DNA from: Runella rosea
GTDB taxonomy: Bacteria > Bacteroidota > Bacteroidia > Cytophagales > Spirosomataceae
Length of the DNA stretch: 64,000 nucleotides
Reading direction: 5' to 3'
Assembly: GCF_003325355.1 (NCBI RefSeq)
Contig: NZ_CP030850.1
Location: 1,984,001-2,048,000 of the forward strand
The first letter of the stretch is position 1, and each line of letters begins with the position of its first letter. Positions 16,607-22,058 of this stretch are shown piece after piece. Position numbers and translations under genes: made by a program. The notes beneath the pieces are model-generated. The model saw nothing but the letters and a program-made list of their open reading frames with translations, was not told the origin of the DNA and made no database searches.

Positions 16607-16669
16607 AACGGCAAAATCACCACGGTTCAACACCTTTATCGTACGGCTCAATGCTGATTTTGCCCCGTT
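16607..16669. repeat. long-looped inverted repeat before the propeller kinase
   Basis: AACG-GCAAAATCA (16607-16619) pairs with TGATTTTGC-cc-CGTT (16655-16669): nine contiguous pairs, then four more across a 2-base bulge, enclosing 35 bases. It lies in the 331-bp gap 16514-16844, which otherwise shows only a weak minus-strand -7 (CAAAACTA, 16564-16571) for DUF3592. Confidence 0.4.
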
Positions 16670-16844
16670 TTACCCCCAAAAACCAACGCTTTGGTCAGTT
16701 TTATTTTTCGTTTCAATCCCTTCTTTCTACTTTCATCGAATACCAATTGTATCGATTCAGCTTGTCAAATCCGTTTAATGAAGTAAAAGAAGGCCATTTT
16801 TTTTGCACTTTTACGTCTTACTTAACTTTTTTCAGCCACAACAA

Positions 16845-19800
16845 ATGCGGACAGGCTCATCCCTTTTTTTTAGTCTACTTTTGAGCTGTTGGACACAGGT
16901 TCTGGTGCTTGGGCAATCTTCCGAAATCTCTTTTCAGCACCTGAGTCCTGAGCAGGGGCTTCCTATTCATTATTGCACTGGTATTGCCCAAGATACGTCG
17001 GGTTTTATCTGGATTGGTACGTTGGCTGGACTAGCACGCTACGACGGTATTCGATGCAAAGTCTTTGACCACGACCGCCAAAACCCCCATTCGCTTTCGG
17101 ATATTATTGTTCGTTCCGTTTTGTTATCCAAAAATGGCACCCTTTGGGTAGGAACGCAGCATGGATTTAACCGAATGGACTTTAAAACGCAGCAATTTGA
17201 GCGATTTCATTTTACCAAATACGGTGAGCGCTCCGATTATATTCGCTGTATCGGCGAAGACTTCCGGGGTAAACTCTGGCTCGGTAGCGCCAACGGACTG
17301 ATTCTTTTTGACCCCAAAACCAAGCAATCAGAATTAATTAAGCTTCCTACCGACCCCTCCTCAAAGCCGCTCGTTTATTCTGTTCGCTCGTTGCTGATTG
17401 ATGGCCCCACGGTTTGGATTGGCACCGACTTGGGGCTGTATCGCTACAATATTGAAGAGAATTCTTTTCAGGTTTTTTGCAAAAGCGATGAATTGGGCAC
17501 CATTCCCGACAACTCCGTGACGGCTTTGGCAAAGCACCCCAAAACGGGAAATATCATTGTTGGCACCCGCAATGGTACGTTGTCGATGTTGAGCCTTGCC
17601 ACCGAACATTTCATAAAAATGGACATTCCACTGGCCGAACCCCGAGAAATTAGCTCGGTGTTTTACTCCAAAGATGGTAAACTCTGGATATGTACCCAAG
17701 GACAAGGGATTTTTTGTTATCACGAAAACCAACGAAAGTTTATTAATTACCAAAGTCAAATCAACGTACCCAATAGTCTGAGTTCCAACTATGTACGAAC
17801 CGCATTCCAGGACCGTTCGGGCGTACTTTGGTTTAGTACTGCTTATAAAGGCATCAGTCGGTTTAACCCTGCTAGTCAGTCATTTACTTCTCCCCTAAAA
17901 GAAGCCAATTATCAGCCTACCACGGCCAACGGCGGGGCCATTAACCGGATTGCGGTCGACAGTAAGGACAACCTTTGGTTGGGAACCGACAACGGCGTGG
18001 TGTGGGTCAACCAAACTACCAATACGTACAAGGCCTATCGCCACGATCCTAAAAACAAAAACAGTCTTTCTGACAACGGTGTCAACTCTATCTACGTTGA
18101 CCCCGAAGACAAGGTATATATAGCCACCCAACACTTTCAGCATTTGGACCCTACCACGGGAAAATTTACGATTTATGACCATCTCCCCAATGAAGCAATG
18201 CCCTCCCCACCACCTATCGTTCCTGGGCGTCATTTTGTCGCAGGCAGGCTTGTGTTCGATTTACATCCTACATCAGATGGAAGTGTGTTTATCGGCACCG
18301 ACGAGGGGCTGAATATATTTGACCCCAAGACCAAAACTTTTGCCAATCGCTTTAACGATGAGCGCATTCGGCGTTTGCCTCTGAATCGCTACAATAGCCT
18401 ATACACCGACAGCAAACAAAATCTGTGGGTTGGCTGCGGCGTTGACGAGGTGCTTTGCATTAGTCCCGATTTATCAAAAGTAACCACTTATCGATACCAA
18501 GAAGACAACCCCAAAAGCCTGCCTGACAACGGCGTAATGTCTTTTTCGGAAGACTCAAAGGGCAATATATGGATGGGAACTGATAATGGACTGGCCTGCC
18601 TTGACCCTAAAACTCAATCGTTTACCAATTATTTTACCCGTCATGGCATTGCTAACAATTATGTTTCGGCCCTGATACGGGTCCGAAACACGCTATGGAT
18701 GGGAACCGCTAATGGATTAACGCGGTACGACGAGCAACAAAAACGGTTTGTATCCTTTGGCCGCGCCGACAACCTTGAGGTGCTTTCTATCGAGACCAAA
18801 TCGGTGGCCAAAGACCAATTGGGTAATTTGTATTTTGGGGGACTGTACGGATTGGTGCGGTTTCATCCCGACCGCGTCAAAACCAACACGTTTGTTCCGC
18901 CCGTAGTCGTGACGTCGTTAAGGGTGCATGGTCAGGAAGTTCTTCCTACGCACATTCCCCAAAACAACCTTCCGATTACGTTGGCGTACGATGAAAACGA
19001 CCTTAGCATCGAAGCGGCCGCCCTAAGCTATGACCATTCGGAAAACAATCTGTTTTCATTCTGGCTCGAAGGCGTCAAAAATGACAACGGTTGGCGAGCT
19101 CCTACGACCCAAGCAAACATTAGCTACCTCAACGTACCACCCGGGGAGTATACGTTGCACGTAAAAGCCGCCAACAACGACGGAGTCTGGAACCCAGCTC
19201 CGTACACCCTACGCATCGTAATCAATCCACCATTTTGGCAAACATGGTGGTTTCAAACGTTAATGGTCATGCTGGTCGTAGCCATCGGCGTTTACATTTA
19301 TCGGTCCCGCGTAAAAATCATCCAACGCGAACACGCCACGCAGGTAAAATTGTTGGAAGAACAACAAATGCTTCAAAATCAACTCAATCAGGAGTTGACC
19401 GAAAAACTGGATTTTCGCCAAAAGTTTGAAATTGTCCAAAAGCAACAAGTTGAAACCGAGCGCAAAGCCATCATGCTTGAGCGTGAGAAAGTACTAGCTC
19501 GTTATCAAGGACTTATCAACCAACTCAATCCCCACTTTTTGTTTAACAGCTTGGCGGTTTTGGACAGTCTCATCTACAAAGACCATAAACTAGCCTCCAA
19601 ATACCTCCGTCAATTGACAAAAGTATACCGGTATCTGATTGAAAACGACGACCACGAAGTGGTGATGCTAGAACAAGAATTACGCTTTGCCCGTGACTTT
19701 ATAAGCCTGTTGCACATGCGATACGGCACGGGGCTATGCGTTGAAATAGACATCCCCGACGATTTGGCGCACAAAAAAGTGGTCCCCGTTACCTTTCAAA

Positions 19801-20045
19801 ATTTAATTGAAAACGCCATCAAACACAACACAACCAGCTTGGAATCACCCCTTTGGGTAAAAATCAGGGAAGAAGACAATTACCTTATTTTTGAAAATAA
19901 CCTACAAAAGCGCGGAACCGTAACCACTTCCAATAAAAAAGGATTGGGCGATTTTCGGGCTTTGTATAGTTACCTAACCGACCGACCCATGCAAGTAAAA
20001 GAAACCGTCGACCGTTTTACCGTCTATGTTCCATTACTGGATTAA
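16845..20045 (+). CDS. two-component sensor histidine kinase with periplasmic beta-propeller (LytS-type kinase domain)
   Basis: This 1066-residue protein has a signal peptide (1-21), about 14 Reg_prop repeats forming periplasmic propellers (to about 700; repeated 'DSKGNIWMGTDNGLACLDP'), a Y_Y_Y domain (about 735-795), one membrane helix (about 800-820), a coiled coil, and a PF06580-type kinase core. The phosphoacceptor histidine is near 896 in 'INQLNPHFLFNSL' and the N box is 'NLIENAIKHN'. Such proteins usually sense polysaccharide fragments or envelope cues. It has no regulator of its own; the nearest is the LytTR gene at 21233. The start at 16845 opens directly onto the signal peptide. Confidence 0.92.
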   Translation: MRTGSSLFFSLLLSCWTQVLVLGQSSEISFQHLSPEQGLPIHYCTGIAQDTSGFIWIGTLAGLARYDGIRCKVFDHDRQNPHSLSDIIVRSVLLSKNGTLWVGTQHGFNRMDFKTQQFERFHFTKYGERSDYIRCIGEDFRGKLWLGSANGLILFDPKTKQSELIKLPTDPSSKPLVYSVRSLLIDGPTVWIGTDLGLYRYNIEENSFQVFCKSDELGTIPDNSVTALAKHPKTGNIIVGTRNGTLSMLSLATEHFIKMDIPLAEPREISSVFYSKDGKLWICTQGQGIFCYHENQRKFINYQSQINVPNSLSSNYVRTAFQDRSGVLWFSTAYKGISRFNPASQSFTSPLKEANYQPTTANGGAINRIAVDSKDNLWLGTDNGVVWVNQTTNTYKAYRHDPKNKNSLSDNGVNSIYVDPEDKVYIATQHFQHLDPTTGKFTIYDHLPNEAMPSPPPIVPGRHFVAGRLVFDLHPTSDGSVFIGTDEGLNIFDPKTKTFANRFNDERIRRLPLNRYNSLYTDSKQNLWVGCGVDEVLCISPDLSKVTTYRYQEDNPKSLPDNGVMSFSEDSKGNIWMGTDNGLACLDPKTQSFTNYFTRHGIANNYVSALIRVRNTLWMGTANGLTRYDEQQKRFVSFGRADNLEVLSIETKSVAKDQLGNLYFGGLYGLVRFHPDRVKTNTFVPPVVVTSLRVHGQEVLPTHIPQNNLPITLAYDENDLSIEAAALSYDHSENNLFSFWLEGVKNDNGWRAPTTQANISYLNVPPGEYTLHVKAANNDGVWNPAPYTLRIVINPPFWQTWWFQTLMVMLVVAIGVYIYRSRVKIIQREHATQVKLLEEQQMLQNQLNQELTEKLDFRQKFEIVQKQQVETERKAIMLEREKVLARYQGLINQLNPHFLFNSLAVLDSLIYKDHKLASKYLRQLTKVYRYLIENDDHEVVMLEQELRFARDFISLLHMRYGTGLCVEIDIPDDLAHKKVVPVTFQNLIENAIKHNTTSLESPLWVKIREEDNYLIFENNLQKRGTVTTSNKKGLGDFRALYSYLTDRPMQVKETVDRFTVYVPLLD

Positions 20046-20159
20046 CGCCTCGGTTTTAGCTTTTGCAGGATTAGCCATCCAAACCGACGTCTTAGGCTGT
20101 TTTTTTTAGTTATGCTGTTTAAACCATCTAATTTTATACAACCAACCCACACATAAACC

Positions 20160-20576
20160 ATGAATGATCAACAAAAAAAGCTGGTACAAACCAGTTTTGC
20201 CCGTATTGTTCCGAAATCAGAGTATGCCGCTCAAGTGTTTTATACACGTTTTTTTGAACTAGTCCCTGAGGTAAAGCATCTTTTCAAAAGTGAGCTTAAA
20301 ACCCAAGGAATCAAACTGTTTCAGGTGATTAGCTTTACGGTATGTTCTCTGGATAATATGGATGAACTACTGCCACTGTTGCAAGATTTAGGACAGAAAC
20401 ACGTGAAGTACGGCGCCAAAGTACAGCATTATCAATACATTGGAGAGGCGTTGTTGTGGACATTGGAAAAGGTACTAAAAAGTGATTTTACCCCCGAAAT
20501 ACAACAAGCGTGGATTGATGTATACAGCGTGATGTCGGCCGCAATGATTGAAGCCGCCCACCAACAAACGGCCTGA
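20160..20576 (+). CDS. single-domain globin
   Basis: The 138-residue protein is a complete haemoglobin-like domain with the residues of a flavohaemoglobin-type haem pocket: Tyr28 (B10) in 'VFYTRFFELVPEVKHLF', Gln49 (E7) in 'KTQGIKL', and the proximal His81 (F8) in 'LGQKHVKYGA'. Tyr/Gln distal pairs bind O2 tightly and react with NO in the family. It has no reductase or transducer domain. Only 3 bp separate it from a histidine kinase gene, with a response regulator next, so it may be the haem sensor subunit of that pathway rather than an NO dioxygenase. That role is inference. Confidence 0.9.
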   Translation: MNDQQKKLVQTSFARIVPKSEYAAQVFYTRFFELVPEVKHLFKSELKTQGIKLFQVISFTVCSLDNMDELLPLLQDLGQKHVKYGAKVQHYQYIGEALLWTLEKVLKSDFTPEIQQAWIDVYSVMSAAMIEAAHQQTA

Positions 20577-20579
20577 TGA

Positions 20580-21218
20580 ATGAAACCAACGCCTAAAATA
20601 GAATCTACACCAACCGAAATACCCGCCCAAGAAGCGGGCGAAAAAAGCGCGTATGATAGTGACCATTCGGAAGTTAAATACCAAAATTTAGTCAGTCAGC
20701 TCAATCCACATTTTTTGTTTAACAGTCTGGCCACCCTTGAAAGTCTGATTTACAGCGACCAACGGCTGGCGGTCAAATTTTTAAGTCAATTGACGCGCGT
20801 CTATCGCTACGTTCTGACCACCCGACACACCAAACTGGTCACGCTGGGTGAAGAGTTGTGTTTTATTAAAGATTACGCAGATTTGCTCCAAACCCGCTTT
20901 GGGAAAGGGCTGGAAGTATGCCTTACAGTACCCGAAACCTATTATTCGTTTCAGATTGTTCCGACCACGTTGCAGATTCTGATTGAAAACGCCACCCGGC
21001 ACAACCTAACCGACCCCGACTCGCCGTTGCTGGTTACGATAAAAATTGAAAATCAACGACTTATCATCGAAAACAACCTCCAAATCAAACGTACATTAGA
21101 AGTTCAAAATCGACAAGGCTTAAGCAGCTTGCGGAATTTATACGCTTATTTTTCAGAAACCGCGCTTGAGATTCAACAAACACCCGAATTCTTTCGCATC
21201 GTATTGCCATTACTTTAA
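20580..21218 (+). CDS. soluble histidine kinase (PF06580 / LytS-type core)
   Basis: The 212-residue protein has no membrane segment and no sensor domain: about 33 polar residues, then the kinase core with His44 in 'VSQLNPHFLFNSL', 'LSQLTRVYRYVL' and the N box 'LIENATRHN'. Its core is clearly paralogous to the propeller kinase at 16845-20045 (for example 'YQ-L--QLNPHFLFNSLA-L' is shared). It sits 3 bp after the globin and 14 bp before the LytTR regulator, so the three are almost certainly one operon. Sensory input must come from another protein, plausibly the globin. Confidence 0.9.
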   Translation: MKPTPKIESTPTEIPAQEAGEKSAYDSDHSEVKYQNLVSQLNPHFLFNSLATLESLIYSDQRLAVKFLSQLTRVYRYVLTTRHTKLVTLGEELCFIKDYADLLQTRFGKGLEVCLTVPETYYSFQIVPTTLQILIENATRHNLTDPDSPLLVTIKIENQRLIIENNLQIKRTLEVQNRQGLSSLRNLYAYFSETALEIQQTPEFFRIVLPLL

Positions 21219-21232
21219 CCTAACCAAACACC

Positions 21233-21994
21233 ATGAAAGTTCTAATTGTAGAAGACGAAGCCCTCATTGCCGAACAGCTCCAACGAATGTTGAAAGATAT
21301 TGCGCCACAGGCCGAGGTGCTTGATGTTTTGCACAGCGTAAAAAACGCCAGACGGTGGTTTATGCAAAATGCCGAGCCTGATTTGCTTTTCATGGATATT
21401 CAGCTCTCCGATGGTATCAGTTTCGATTTATTCAACTATTTCGACATCAAATGTCCGATTATTTTTGCCACCGCTTACGACGAATACGCCATCAAGGCGT
21501 TTAAGGTCAATGGCATTGATTATCTTTTAAAACCCATCGACGAAGAGGATCTTATTCGTGCCCTTGGTAAATTTAAGGCGCTGCAAAAAAACCAAAGTAT
21601 TTCGACCGAAGTGCTGCAAACCCTGGCCAATCACCCTTCCCAAATCGGGAGAATGTACAAGGAGAAACTGATTGTTCAGCACCGCAATGCGTCTATTCCT
21701 ATCAACTTGGCCGATGTATCGCTATTTTATCTTGACCAAGTAATCTTTGTGGTAACCAATGACGGTCAAAAATACATTGCCGAACAAAACACACTGGATG
21801 AAATCGAAGACATCCTCAACCCAAATGAGTTTTTCAGGGCAGGACGCCGACAAATTATCAATCAAAATGCAGTTGAAAGTTATAAGGGTGACGCCTCTGG
21901 GAAATTATACGTAAAACTACGAAGCAGCCACGTATCAGAAGTAGAAATCAGCCGGGAAAAAGCCCCTGTGTTTAAACGCTGGATTGACCGCTAA
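21233..21994 (+). CDS. LytTR-family response regulator
   Basis: The 253-residue protein has a receiver domain (about 1-118) with acidic residues E7/D8, phosphoacceptor D55 ('FMDIQLSDG'), 'TAYDEYAIKAFKVNGIDYLLKPI', then a LytTR DNA-binding domain (about 150-250: 'FFRAGRRQIINQNAVESY'). It is the likely partner of the soluble kinase and perhaps also of the paralogous propeller kinase. The direct targets are unknown. Confidence 0.93.
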   Translation: MKVLIVEDEALIAEQLQRMLKDIAPQAEVLDVLHSVKNARRWFMQNAEPDLLFMDIQLSDGISFDLFNYFDIKCPIIFATAYDEYAIKAFKVNGIDYLLKPIDEEDLIRALGKFKALQKNQSISTEVLQTLANHPSQIGRMYKEKLIVQHRNASIPINLADVSLFYLDQVIFVVTNDGQKYIAEQNTLDEIEDILNPNEFFRAGRRQIINQNAVESYKGDASGKLYVKLRSSHVSEVEISREKAPVFKRWIDR

Positions 21995-22015: not shown

Positions 22016-22058
22016 AGCCGCGTTATGAAGGTATATTTTCATAATGCGGCTATTTTAT
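22016..22058 (+). terminator. terminator of the globin-kinase-regulator operon
   Basis: A 14-bp stem (22016-22029 with 22038-22051, one G-T pair) and an 8-base loop are followed by ATTTTATTT. It lies 22 bp after the regulator stop. Confidence 0.85.

Follow-up and report, generated by a model that had tools for sequence, protein, structure and literature searches.

The window analysed here is a 64,000-nucleotide stretch of Runella rosea DNA (contig NZ_CP030850.1, positions 1,984,001 to 2,048,000, forward strand). Within it, a gene for a single-domain globin stands in a row of four genes whose other members make up a LytS/LytTR two-component system: a large histidine kinase (HKbig), a short, sensorless histidine kinase transmitter (HKs) and a response regulator (RR). 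His_kinase PF06580 is found in both HKbig and HKs, and RR combines a receiver with a LytTR domain. The features, in window coordinates, are as follows.

16622..16693, plus strand: LytTR-type direct repeats upstream of HKbig, with ACGGTTCA at 16622, ACGGCTCA at 16643 and ACGCTTTG at 16686.
16803..20045, plus strand: HKbig, an open reading frame (ORF) of 1080 residues with a Reg_prop propeller, Y_Y_Y and a LytS-type His_kinase transmitter (Pfam).
20045..20094, plus strand: LytTR-type direct repeat pair, ACGCCTCG at 20045 and ACGTCTTA at 20087, 42 bp apart, between HKbig and the globin gene.
20160..20576, plus strand: single-domain globin of 138 residues, with Tyr28, Phe42, Gln49, His81, Tyr91 and Glu131.
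20580..21218, plus strand: HKs, a sensorless LytS-type transmitter of 212 residues; the NPHFLFN histidine and the N-box are kept and the ATP lid is degenerate.
21233..21994, plus strand: RR, the LytTR response regulator of 253 residues (receiver plus LytTR).
22016..22051, plus strand: terminator-like hairpin from a consensus scan, 16 pairs and a T-rich tail directly past RR.

The gaps between the four genes are 114 nt (HKbig to globin), 3 nt (globin to HKs) and 14 nt (HKs to RR). An initial annotation of this DNA had placed the last three genes, and its coordinates, plus strand and 3-nt and 14-nt gaps all agree with ours. The genes of its three-gene unit are real, but HKbig, directly upstream on the same strand, had been overlooked; the system is real, but larger and differently organised than was thought. 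Pfam assigned the globin to Globin (4e-17), HKs to His_kinase PF06580 (6e-22) and RR to Response_reg and LytTR. A scan of HKs at E 0.01 gave no Pfam family besides His_kinase PF06580, which bears out its description as a 212-residue kinase without an input domain. RR residues Asp55, Thr80 and Lys100 were invariant in a 13-RR alignment. The true start of HKbig is probably the ATG at 16845, judging from a signal-peptide-like N terminus, and the hairpin may mark the end of the transcription unit; the terminator scan of the region gave 17 sites versus 7.6 in shuffled sequence, and a sigma-70 promoter scan of the same region showed no excess (10 sites versus 9.1). The 7.2-Mb R. rosea genome holds 1 globin and 74 LytTR domains.

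Many of these bacteria have single-domain globins, most of them without an established role. PF00042 was the only Pfam family found in this one, and its sole NCBIfam match was to flavohaemoprotein, at 73.9 bits, far under the cut-off of 432. The best matches in PDB were haemoglobin-like flavoproteins, neuroglobins, flavohaemoproteins and Vitreoscilla-type haemoglobin, and the closest solved structures by sequence were 3s1i and 3wfw (E 1e-25 and 1e-31), the latter from a Roadblock/LC7 fusion; we take these to be the ‘Hell's gate globins’, and we know of no two-component partner for them. The helix positions we assume are B10 for Tyr28, CD1 for Phe42, E7 for Gln49, F8 for His81, G5 for Tyr91 and H23 for Glu131. 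With these labels, the Tyr B10, Gln E7 and His F8 recognised in the earlier description are all present, and they are kept in most globins linked to the system (Tyr28 in 82, Gln49 in 78 and His81 in 75 of 84 rows). The protein thus has the globin fold and the pocket residues of a flavohaemoglobin-type single-domain globin. At 138 residues it is globin alone by Pfam, and the FAD/NAD reductase domain of flavohaemoglobin is absent, as is any H-NOX or FIST haem domain. Its Pfam, NCBIfam and PDB matches did not place it in the sensor (S) globin family, for which no model was among those run.

Of 13 Runella genomes, 11 share the gene order HKbig, globin, HKs, RR, each with an orthologous globin and an RR orthologue 85–100% identical to that of the window; the closest matches, from R. 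aurantiaca and Runella sp. CRIBMP, reach 100%. Gaps in ten loci were 110–136 nt between HKbig and globin, 0–5 nt between globin and HKs and 14–92 nt between HKs and RR. The remaining two genomes have neither the globin nor an RR orthologue, their best RR matches being 39% and 46% identical. Conservation of the three-gene order had been proposed as a check; globin, HKs and RR do stay together across the genus, but the globin–HKs pair was seen only in Runella. A complete short kinase resembling HKs was found in none of 72 non-Runella loci of the RR clade, some of which are cut by contig ends, as are the short kinase ORFs of L069 and L075. The kinase in those 72 loci is of the HKbig kind.

Across Bacteroidota the tie between globin and LytTR system is strong. 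A profile of 13 RRs, all from globin-linked loci and with no globin in the query, was scanned against the genome collection, and the 80 best loci of 147 confirmed RR relatives were kept, coming from Chitinophagaceae, Saprospiraceae, Spirosoma, Fibrisoma, Dyadobacter and others. A globin ORF was present in 57 of these best 80 loci (41/53 of those with full flanks and, of these, 35/47 outside Runella). To record orientation, the 80 loci were merged with the family loci fetched for their globins, giving 98 distinct RRs from which no rate was taken. Where a globin was found (75 RRs), it lay upstream on the same strand in 34 cases, upstream on the opposite strand in 27, downstream on the same strand in 10 and downstream on the opposite strand in 4; three of the opposite-strand globins are more than 4 kb from the RR. 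A further 11 RRs of the merged set, with short flanks, had no globin near them.

The converse survey set out from the globins of the family, where 95 of 222 genomes gave a match. It took in all single-domain-size matches outside Runella except G211:C221, globins within ORFs longer than 320 residues were excluded from the counts, and at the threshold used no globin ORF was called in locus L201. Among the 72 non-Runella family globin ORFs (≤320 residues), a clade RR lies within 1 kb of 24 and within 6 kb of 32. For no globin is a non-clade RR the only one within 1 kb, the non-clade RR of L050 being 1017 bp away. The RRs near family globins scored 337–460 bits in 26 of 31 cases and 35–60 in the other five. 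Two of the excluded NO-synthase-type globin ORFs (L045, L046) have another RR within 313 bp.

Co-occurrence gave the same picture. Within the family, a single-domain globin is present in 40 of the 45 genomes with the RR clade versus 18 of 177 without it (Fisher 1.6e-24) and, outside Runella, in 29/34 versus 18/175 (Fisher 2.7e-18). Since genomes are not independent, the count by genus, 13/14 with the RR clade versus 1/22 without, is the fairer figure. No further recurrent partner gene was clear in the linked loci: the two largest clusters are, from their position, apparently shadow ORFs of core genes, and the next ones reach at most 11 loci.

Some loci depart from the common layout. A Fibrisoma genome carries a second copy (L166:6014-7219, kinase ORF from 7230) with an RR 57% identical to the Runella RR and a convergent globin 34 bp away. 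Two tandem globins lie upstream of the propeller kinase and RR in L065, L073, L088 and L089. In L050:2770-5120 (minus strand), a globin, a 347-residue LytS-type kinase and a LytTR regulator stand in a row, with kinase and regulator from a different family; L170, the locus with the globin closest to that of L050, has neither this type of kinase nor the regulator.

The linked globins do not form one group in a globin tree (123 rows, 139 columns). The main linked clade holds 63 linked rows among 75, further linked rows are scattered, and the nine Runella globins fall outside it on a branch of length 1.07, amid mostly unlinked globins. Linkage changes 15 times on the tree, at least 6 of these changes being forced by starred branches, versus 33 in shuffles; many forks are open and long-branch effects are possible. 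This suggests that different globins joined the one RR clade more than once, a claim limited by short proteins and long branches.

A second line of evidence comes from direct repeats. LytTR repeats are 9 bp long, so that a 12-bp gap gives a 21-bp period. Repeats resembling ACGGTTCA are visible in the Runella intergenic alignments and in the divergent regions of Spirosoma-type loci, and putative direct-repeat sites about 21 bp apart are what a LytTR regulator would be expected to have. LytTR systems are described with repeats separated by 12 bp and with autoregulation in the account in PMC6193735, and AgrA with binding to two direct repeats in that in PMC4227749. A search of both strands of the window found in-phase pairs (21–22 bp period) at two places, ahead of HKbig and ahead of the globin gene, and at no other. 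Both clusters recur in all nine other Runella loci, two of which have one extra pair, versus 2 pairs in all at control distances, and the DNA between HKbig and globin has diverged around the conserved in-phase pair. The repeats point one way: forward to reverse counts in Runella were 21:0 upstream of HKbig (7 sequences) and 16:0 upstream of globins (10 sequences). Since the motif was first spotted by eye in Runella and Spirosoma-type loci and counted afterwards, the counts from those loci are descriptive, and the Chitinophagaceae-type sets are the fairer test. There the counts were 21:2 upstream of the globin (25 regions) and 14:1 upstream of the kinase (24 regions), and a hit was found in 13/25 globin and 12/24 kinase regions versus 1.85 and 2.22 in shuffles. 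In 21 divergent regions the count was 16:13, as expected if both genes have sites.

Outside Runella the spacing is 21 bp. Among repeat pairs 10–45 bp apart in linked loci there, the distance was exactly 21 bp in 11 of 18 upstream of globins and in 9 of 14 upstream of kinases. A pair at 20–22 bp, counted as one core and one looser half-site, was present upstream of 10 of 79 globins, 12 of 76 kinases, 9 of 311 other ORFs and none of 91 RRs (Fisher tests of the enrichment, 0.0013 and 1e-4); the kinase regions with such a pair divide into 8/61 at linked and 4/15 at unlinked loci. Across 68 non-Runella linked loci, the 350 bp in front of globin, kinase and RR genes contain 23 in-phase pairs (13, 6 and 4, respectively), where 1.35 were expected from the rest of those loci.

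With a strict repeat pattern, 8 of the 13 Runella genomes yielded 13 hits in total, versus 3 for a reversed control. Of the 13, 6 precede HKbig and 7 a standalone LytTR gene; the two hits in R. rosea are one of each. The pattern is insensitive and misses degenerate sites, including that of the globin. The standalone gene (L226:5840-6271, plus strand; also L217-L222, L227 and L228) lies behind ACGGTTCA-like repeats 21–22 bp apart in seven Runella genomes. Control of surface or carbohydrate genes, as once suggested for this regulator, finds no counterpart among the 13 strict hits, all of which precede HKbig or the one standalone LytTR gene, with the insensitivity of the pattern kept in mind. We infer that the target set of RR is narrow, while noting that the scan overlooks degenerate sites and that sites of this kind may also attract the standalone LytTR protein.

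HKs is a copy of the HKbig transmitter with an eroding ATP lid. The two share 47% identity over 180 residues, and HKbig is the best match of HKs in the genome, ahead of 38 other hits. In a kinase tree HKs forms one clade (branch length 1.24) beside the Runella HKbig proteins and one kinase from a Fibrisoma genome (SH-aLRT 81). Mean identity among eight Runella copies of HKs was 88% in the acceptor part and 62% in the catalytic part, and among seven copies of HKbig it was 93% and 72%. The phospho-acceptor histidine and the N-box asparagine, both kept in HKs, were present in the 22 aligned rows and invariant in a 32-row alignment. The ratio of nonsynonymous to synonymous substitution (dN/dS) was 0.07–0.14 for HKs in the five pairs giving a value and 0.00–0.03 for RR; HKs is therefore under purifying selection and not a decaying pseudogene, yet it is less constrained than RR. 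The G2 glycine of the ATP lid is kept in 4 of 10 HKs rows, the window copy among them, and replaced by Ala or Thr in 6, versus 12/12 kept in HKbig; the HKbig rows, too, have a short ATP lid without the motif usual in canonical kinases. The alignment was preferred to a regular-expression search for the lid glycine, whose result in 61 other kinases was noisy: 45 had G, 8 had another letter and 8 were unread. A fair AlphaFold2 model of HKs (pLDDT 80.5, pTM 0.75) keeps the DHp-CA fold, its best PDB fold match being the GanS kinase domain (TM 0.55). A role as partner or adaptor fits these data at least as well as that of an independent kinase.

From gene content, linkage, co-occurrence, repeats and conservation, we consider it probable that RR controls its own kinase and the globin, and that HKs is an addition specific to Runella; in that case the globin would be, at the minimum, an output regulated together with the kinase. 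The signal, the direction of control, the globin chemistry and any contact between globin and HKs would then be as follows. HKbig, to judge from its domains and its pairing with RR, would sense a periplasmic or surface signal through its propeller and phosphorylate RR. RR would bind the direct repeats of 21–22 bp period upstream of HKbig and the globin, and so control its own kinase and, as a recurrent target, the globin. With its flavohaemoglobin-type pocket (Tyr-B10/Gln-E7/His-F8), the globin may handle cytoplasmic nitric oxide (NO) or O2. In Runella, HKs would most likely act as a partner or adaptor of HKbig and RR, by heterodimer formation, phosphotransfer or phosphatase activity, given that the phospho-acceptor part persists as the ATP lid degenerates; its action may also be adjusted through feedback from the haem state of the globin.

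Several observations weigh against this interpretation. The 57 of 80 linked loci are not an unbiased rate, because the RR alignment was built from globin-linked loci, and 12 RRs of the clade lack a globin in flanks that exceed 5 kb on each side. From the globin side, 40 of the 72 non-Runella family globins lack a clade RR within 6 kb, some on short contigs, and 18 RR-negative genomes carry single-domain globins. The co-occurrence counts depend on a limit of E ≤ 1e-85 for the RR clade, were made by hand for both genomes and genera, and cover 12 scored RR candidates per genome. Most non-Runella sites appear to be degenerate, absent or beyond the scanned stretch (a pair upstream of only 10/79 globins and 12/76 kinases). 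In the 68 non-Runella linked loci a further 25 in-phase pairs lie elsewhere, versus 3 at control distances, all of them elsewhere too, and the motif is therefore not confined to globin, kinase and RR promoters. Since 7 of the 13 strict hits precede the standalone LytTR gene, another LytTR protein may bind such sites. Lastly, a loose two-repeat pattern showed no excess over the whole R. rosea genome (9 hits versus 13 for the reversed control); three of the nine were at the HKbig and standalone-LytTR loci and, of the other six, the four examined lie in an opposite-strand ORF (L229, L232), inside an ORF (L230) or at an ORF start (L231).

A narrower form of the favoured interpretation makes the globin an output only, a target gene whose product scavenges NO or O2, with HKs a regulatory duplicate that shares its transcript. 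The variable order and orientation of the globin among loci, the RR-type repeats oriented towards it and the different globin lineages that are linked would all suit this account, but it leaves unexplained why a sensorless transmitter is retained directly behind the globin in 11/11 Runella loci. We regard it as possible, though not probable.

The proposal of the initial annotation was a split haem-based gas sensor. The globin would bind O2 or NO and regulate HKs in trans, and HKs would feed RR in parallel with HKbig, a scheme compatible with control of the kinase and globin by RR. The two genes adjoin in all 11 Runella loci, 0–5 nt apart, and HKs has no input domain, keeps its phospho-acceptor histidine, is under purifying selection and has a DHp-CA fold in the model; separation of haem protein and kinase has precedents in H-NOX and NosP, as described in PMC8738867. 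However, HKs is seen only in Runella whereas the globin link is far wider, its ATP-lid glycine is replaced in 6 of 10 rows, and an AlphaFold model of globin and HKs read through as one chain was uninformative on their interface (pLDDT 66, pTM 0.49). The system also has a conventional sensor in HKbig, and the globin therefore need not be its sensor. The genus-wide pairing, the selection on HKs and the globin–LytTR tie thus stand in favour of the proposal, but the restriction of the pair to Runella and the presence of HKbig count against it, and overall we find it somewhat unlikely.

A globin–kinase fusion could have served as Rosetta-stone evidence for a split sensor, but none of the long globin ORFs scanned (one NO-synthase, two of about 280 residues and two Fer2-cyclases) is a histidine kinase; by length, the ORFs of about 400 residues were taken for flavohaemoglobins and the other ORFs of 1100–1580 residues for NO-synthase relatives. 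The scanned NO-synthase ORF (L046:3265-7848, plus strand, 1527 residues) combines NO-synthase with a globin domain and a flavodoxin/FAD/NAD reductase, and a response-regulator-like ORF precedes it. The globins of 283 and 279 residues (L048:6834-7682 and L095:1486-2322) lie near the system in Spirosoma-type genomes, and one of the two has a FAD_binding_6 match just over the cut-off. In other Bacteroidota, L154:412-1881 (plus strand) and L143:1492-2817 (minus strand) fuse a 2Fe-2S ferredoxin, an adenylate/guanylate cyclase and a C-terminal globin.

Doubtful, in our view, is a closed loop extending across Bacteroidota, in which RR would have the globin made and the haem state of the globin would report O2 or NO to the kinase, in Runella via a dedicated, partly degenerate second transmitter in trans. 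Were it true, this would to our knowledge be the first case of a two-component system whose input is a stand-alone globin, and the globins would have been recruited repeatedly. Chance adjacency of a common globin and common LytTR genes we reject as exceedingly improbable on the linkage and co-occurrence data: with 74 LytTR domains in 7.2 Mb one chance neighbour would not be very rare, but the order is kept in 11/13 Runella genomes, the globin recurs with one RR clade, and the two co-occur by genome and by genus.

For control of the globin by RR, the preferred interpretation, a recurrent partner specific to one regulator and a shared site pattern make regulation testable in culturable type strains. 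The locus also offers a defined setting in which to learn whether signals can pass from a free globin to a kinase, and in Runella it provides an example of a sensor kinase whose transmitter domain has been duplicated, the copy lying next to a haem protein. We found no description of a stand-alone globin tied to a LytTR system in the open-access literature, which omits most subscription papers; co-mentions of ‘globin’ and ‘LytTR’ there concern other subjects, judged by title.

Among known systems, Reg_prop/Y_Y_Y sensor kinases, which occur in Bacteroidota at large, share the domain architecture of HKbig, but the partners of the HKbig clade are a single LytTR RR clade and, in many cases, a globin. 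The globin here stands beside a LytTR system, whereas the 3s1i and 3wfw globins are not known to us to have a two-component partner. In HdrRM and BrsRM the membrane partner acts as an inhibitor. These systems, in the account in PMC6193735, are autoregulated, with pairs of direct repeats, separated by 12 bp, in front of the operon that encodes them; the repeats, and the autoregulation predicted here, are alike, but their partner is a membrane protein, whereas here it is a propeller kinase, with the globin as a further predicted target. Globin-coupled sensors likewise bring a globin together with a histidine-kinase transmitter, but as described in PMC3287990 the two are fused in one polypeptide and the globin is of the sensor family; in the Runella loci read, globin and HKs are separate ORFs with a stop codon between them, and the globin is flavohaemoglobin-like. 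The closest parallels are the H-NOX/histidine kinase and NosP/histidine kinase systems, where, in the account in PMC8738867, a stand-alone haem protein lies next to or acts on a separate kinase, with a response regulator. The arrangement, which the initial annotation had not recognised as a described system, is to that extent not new in principle, although no stand-alone globin–LytTR module was found in the open literature. The sensor in those systems is H-NOX or FIST; here the haem protein is a globin, and it is apparently also a target of the regulator.

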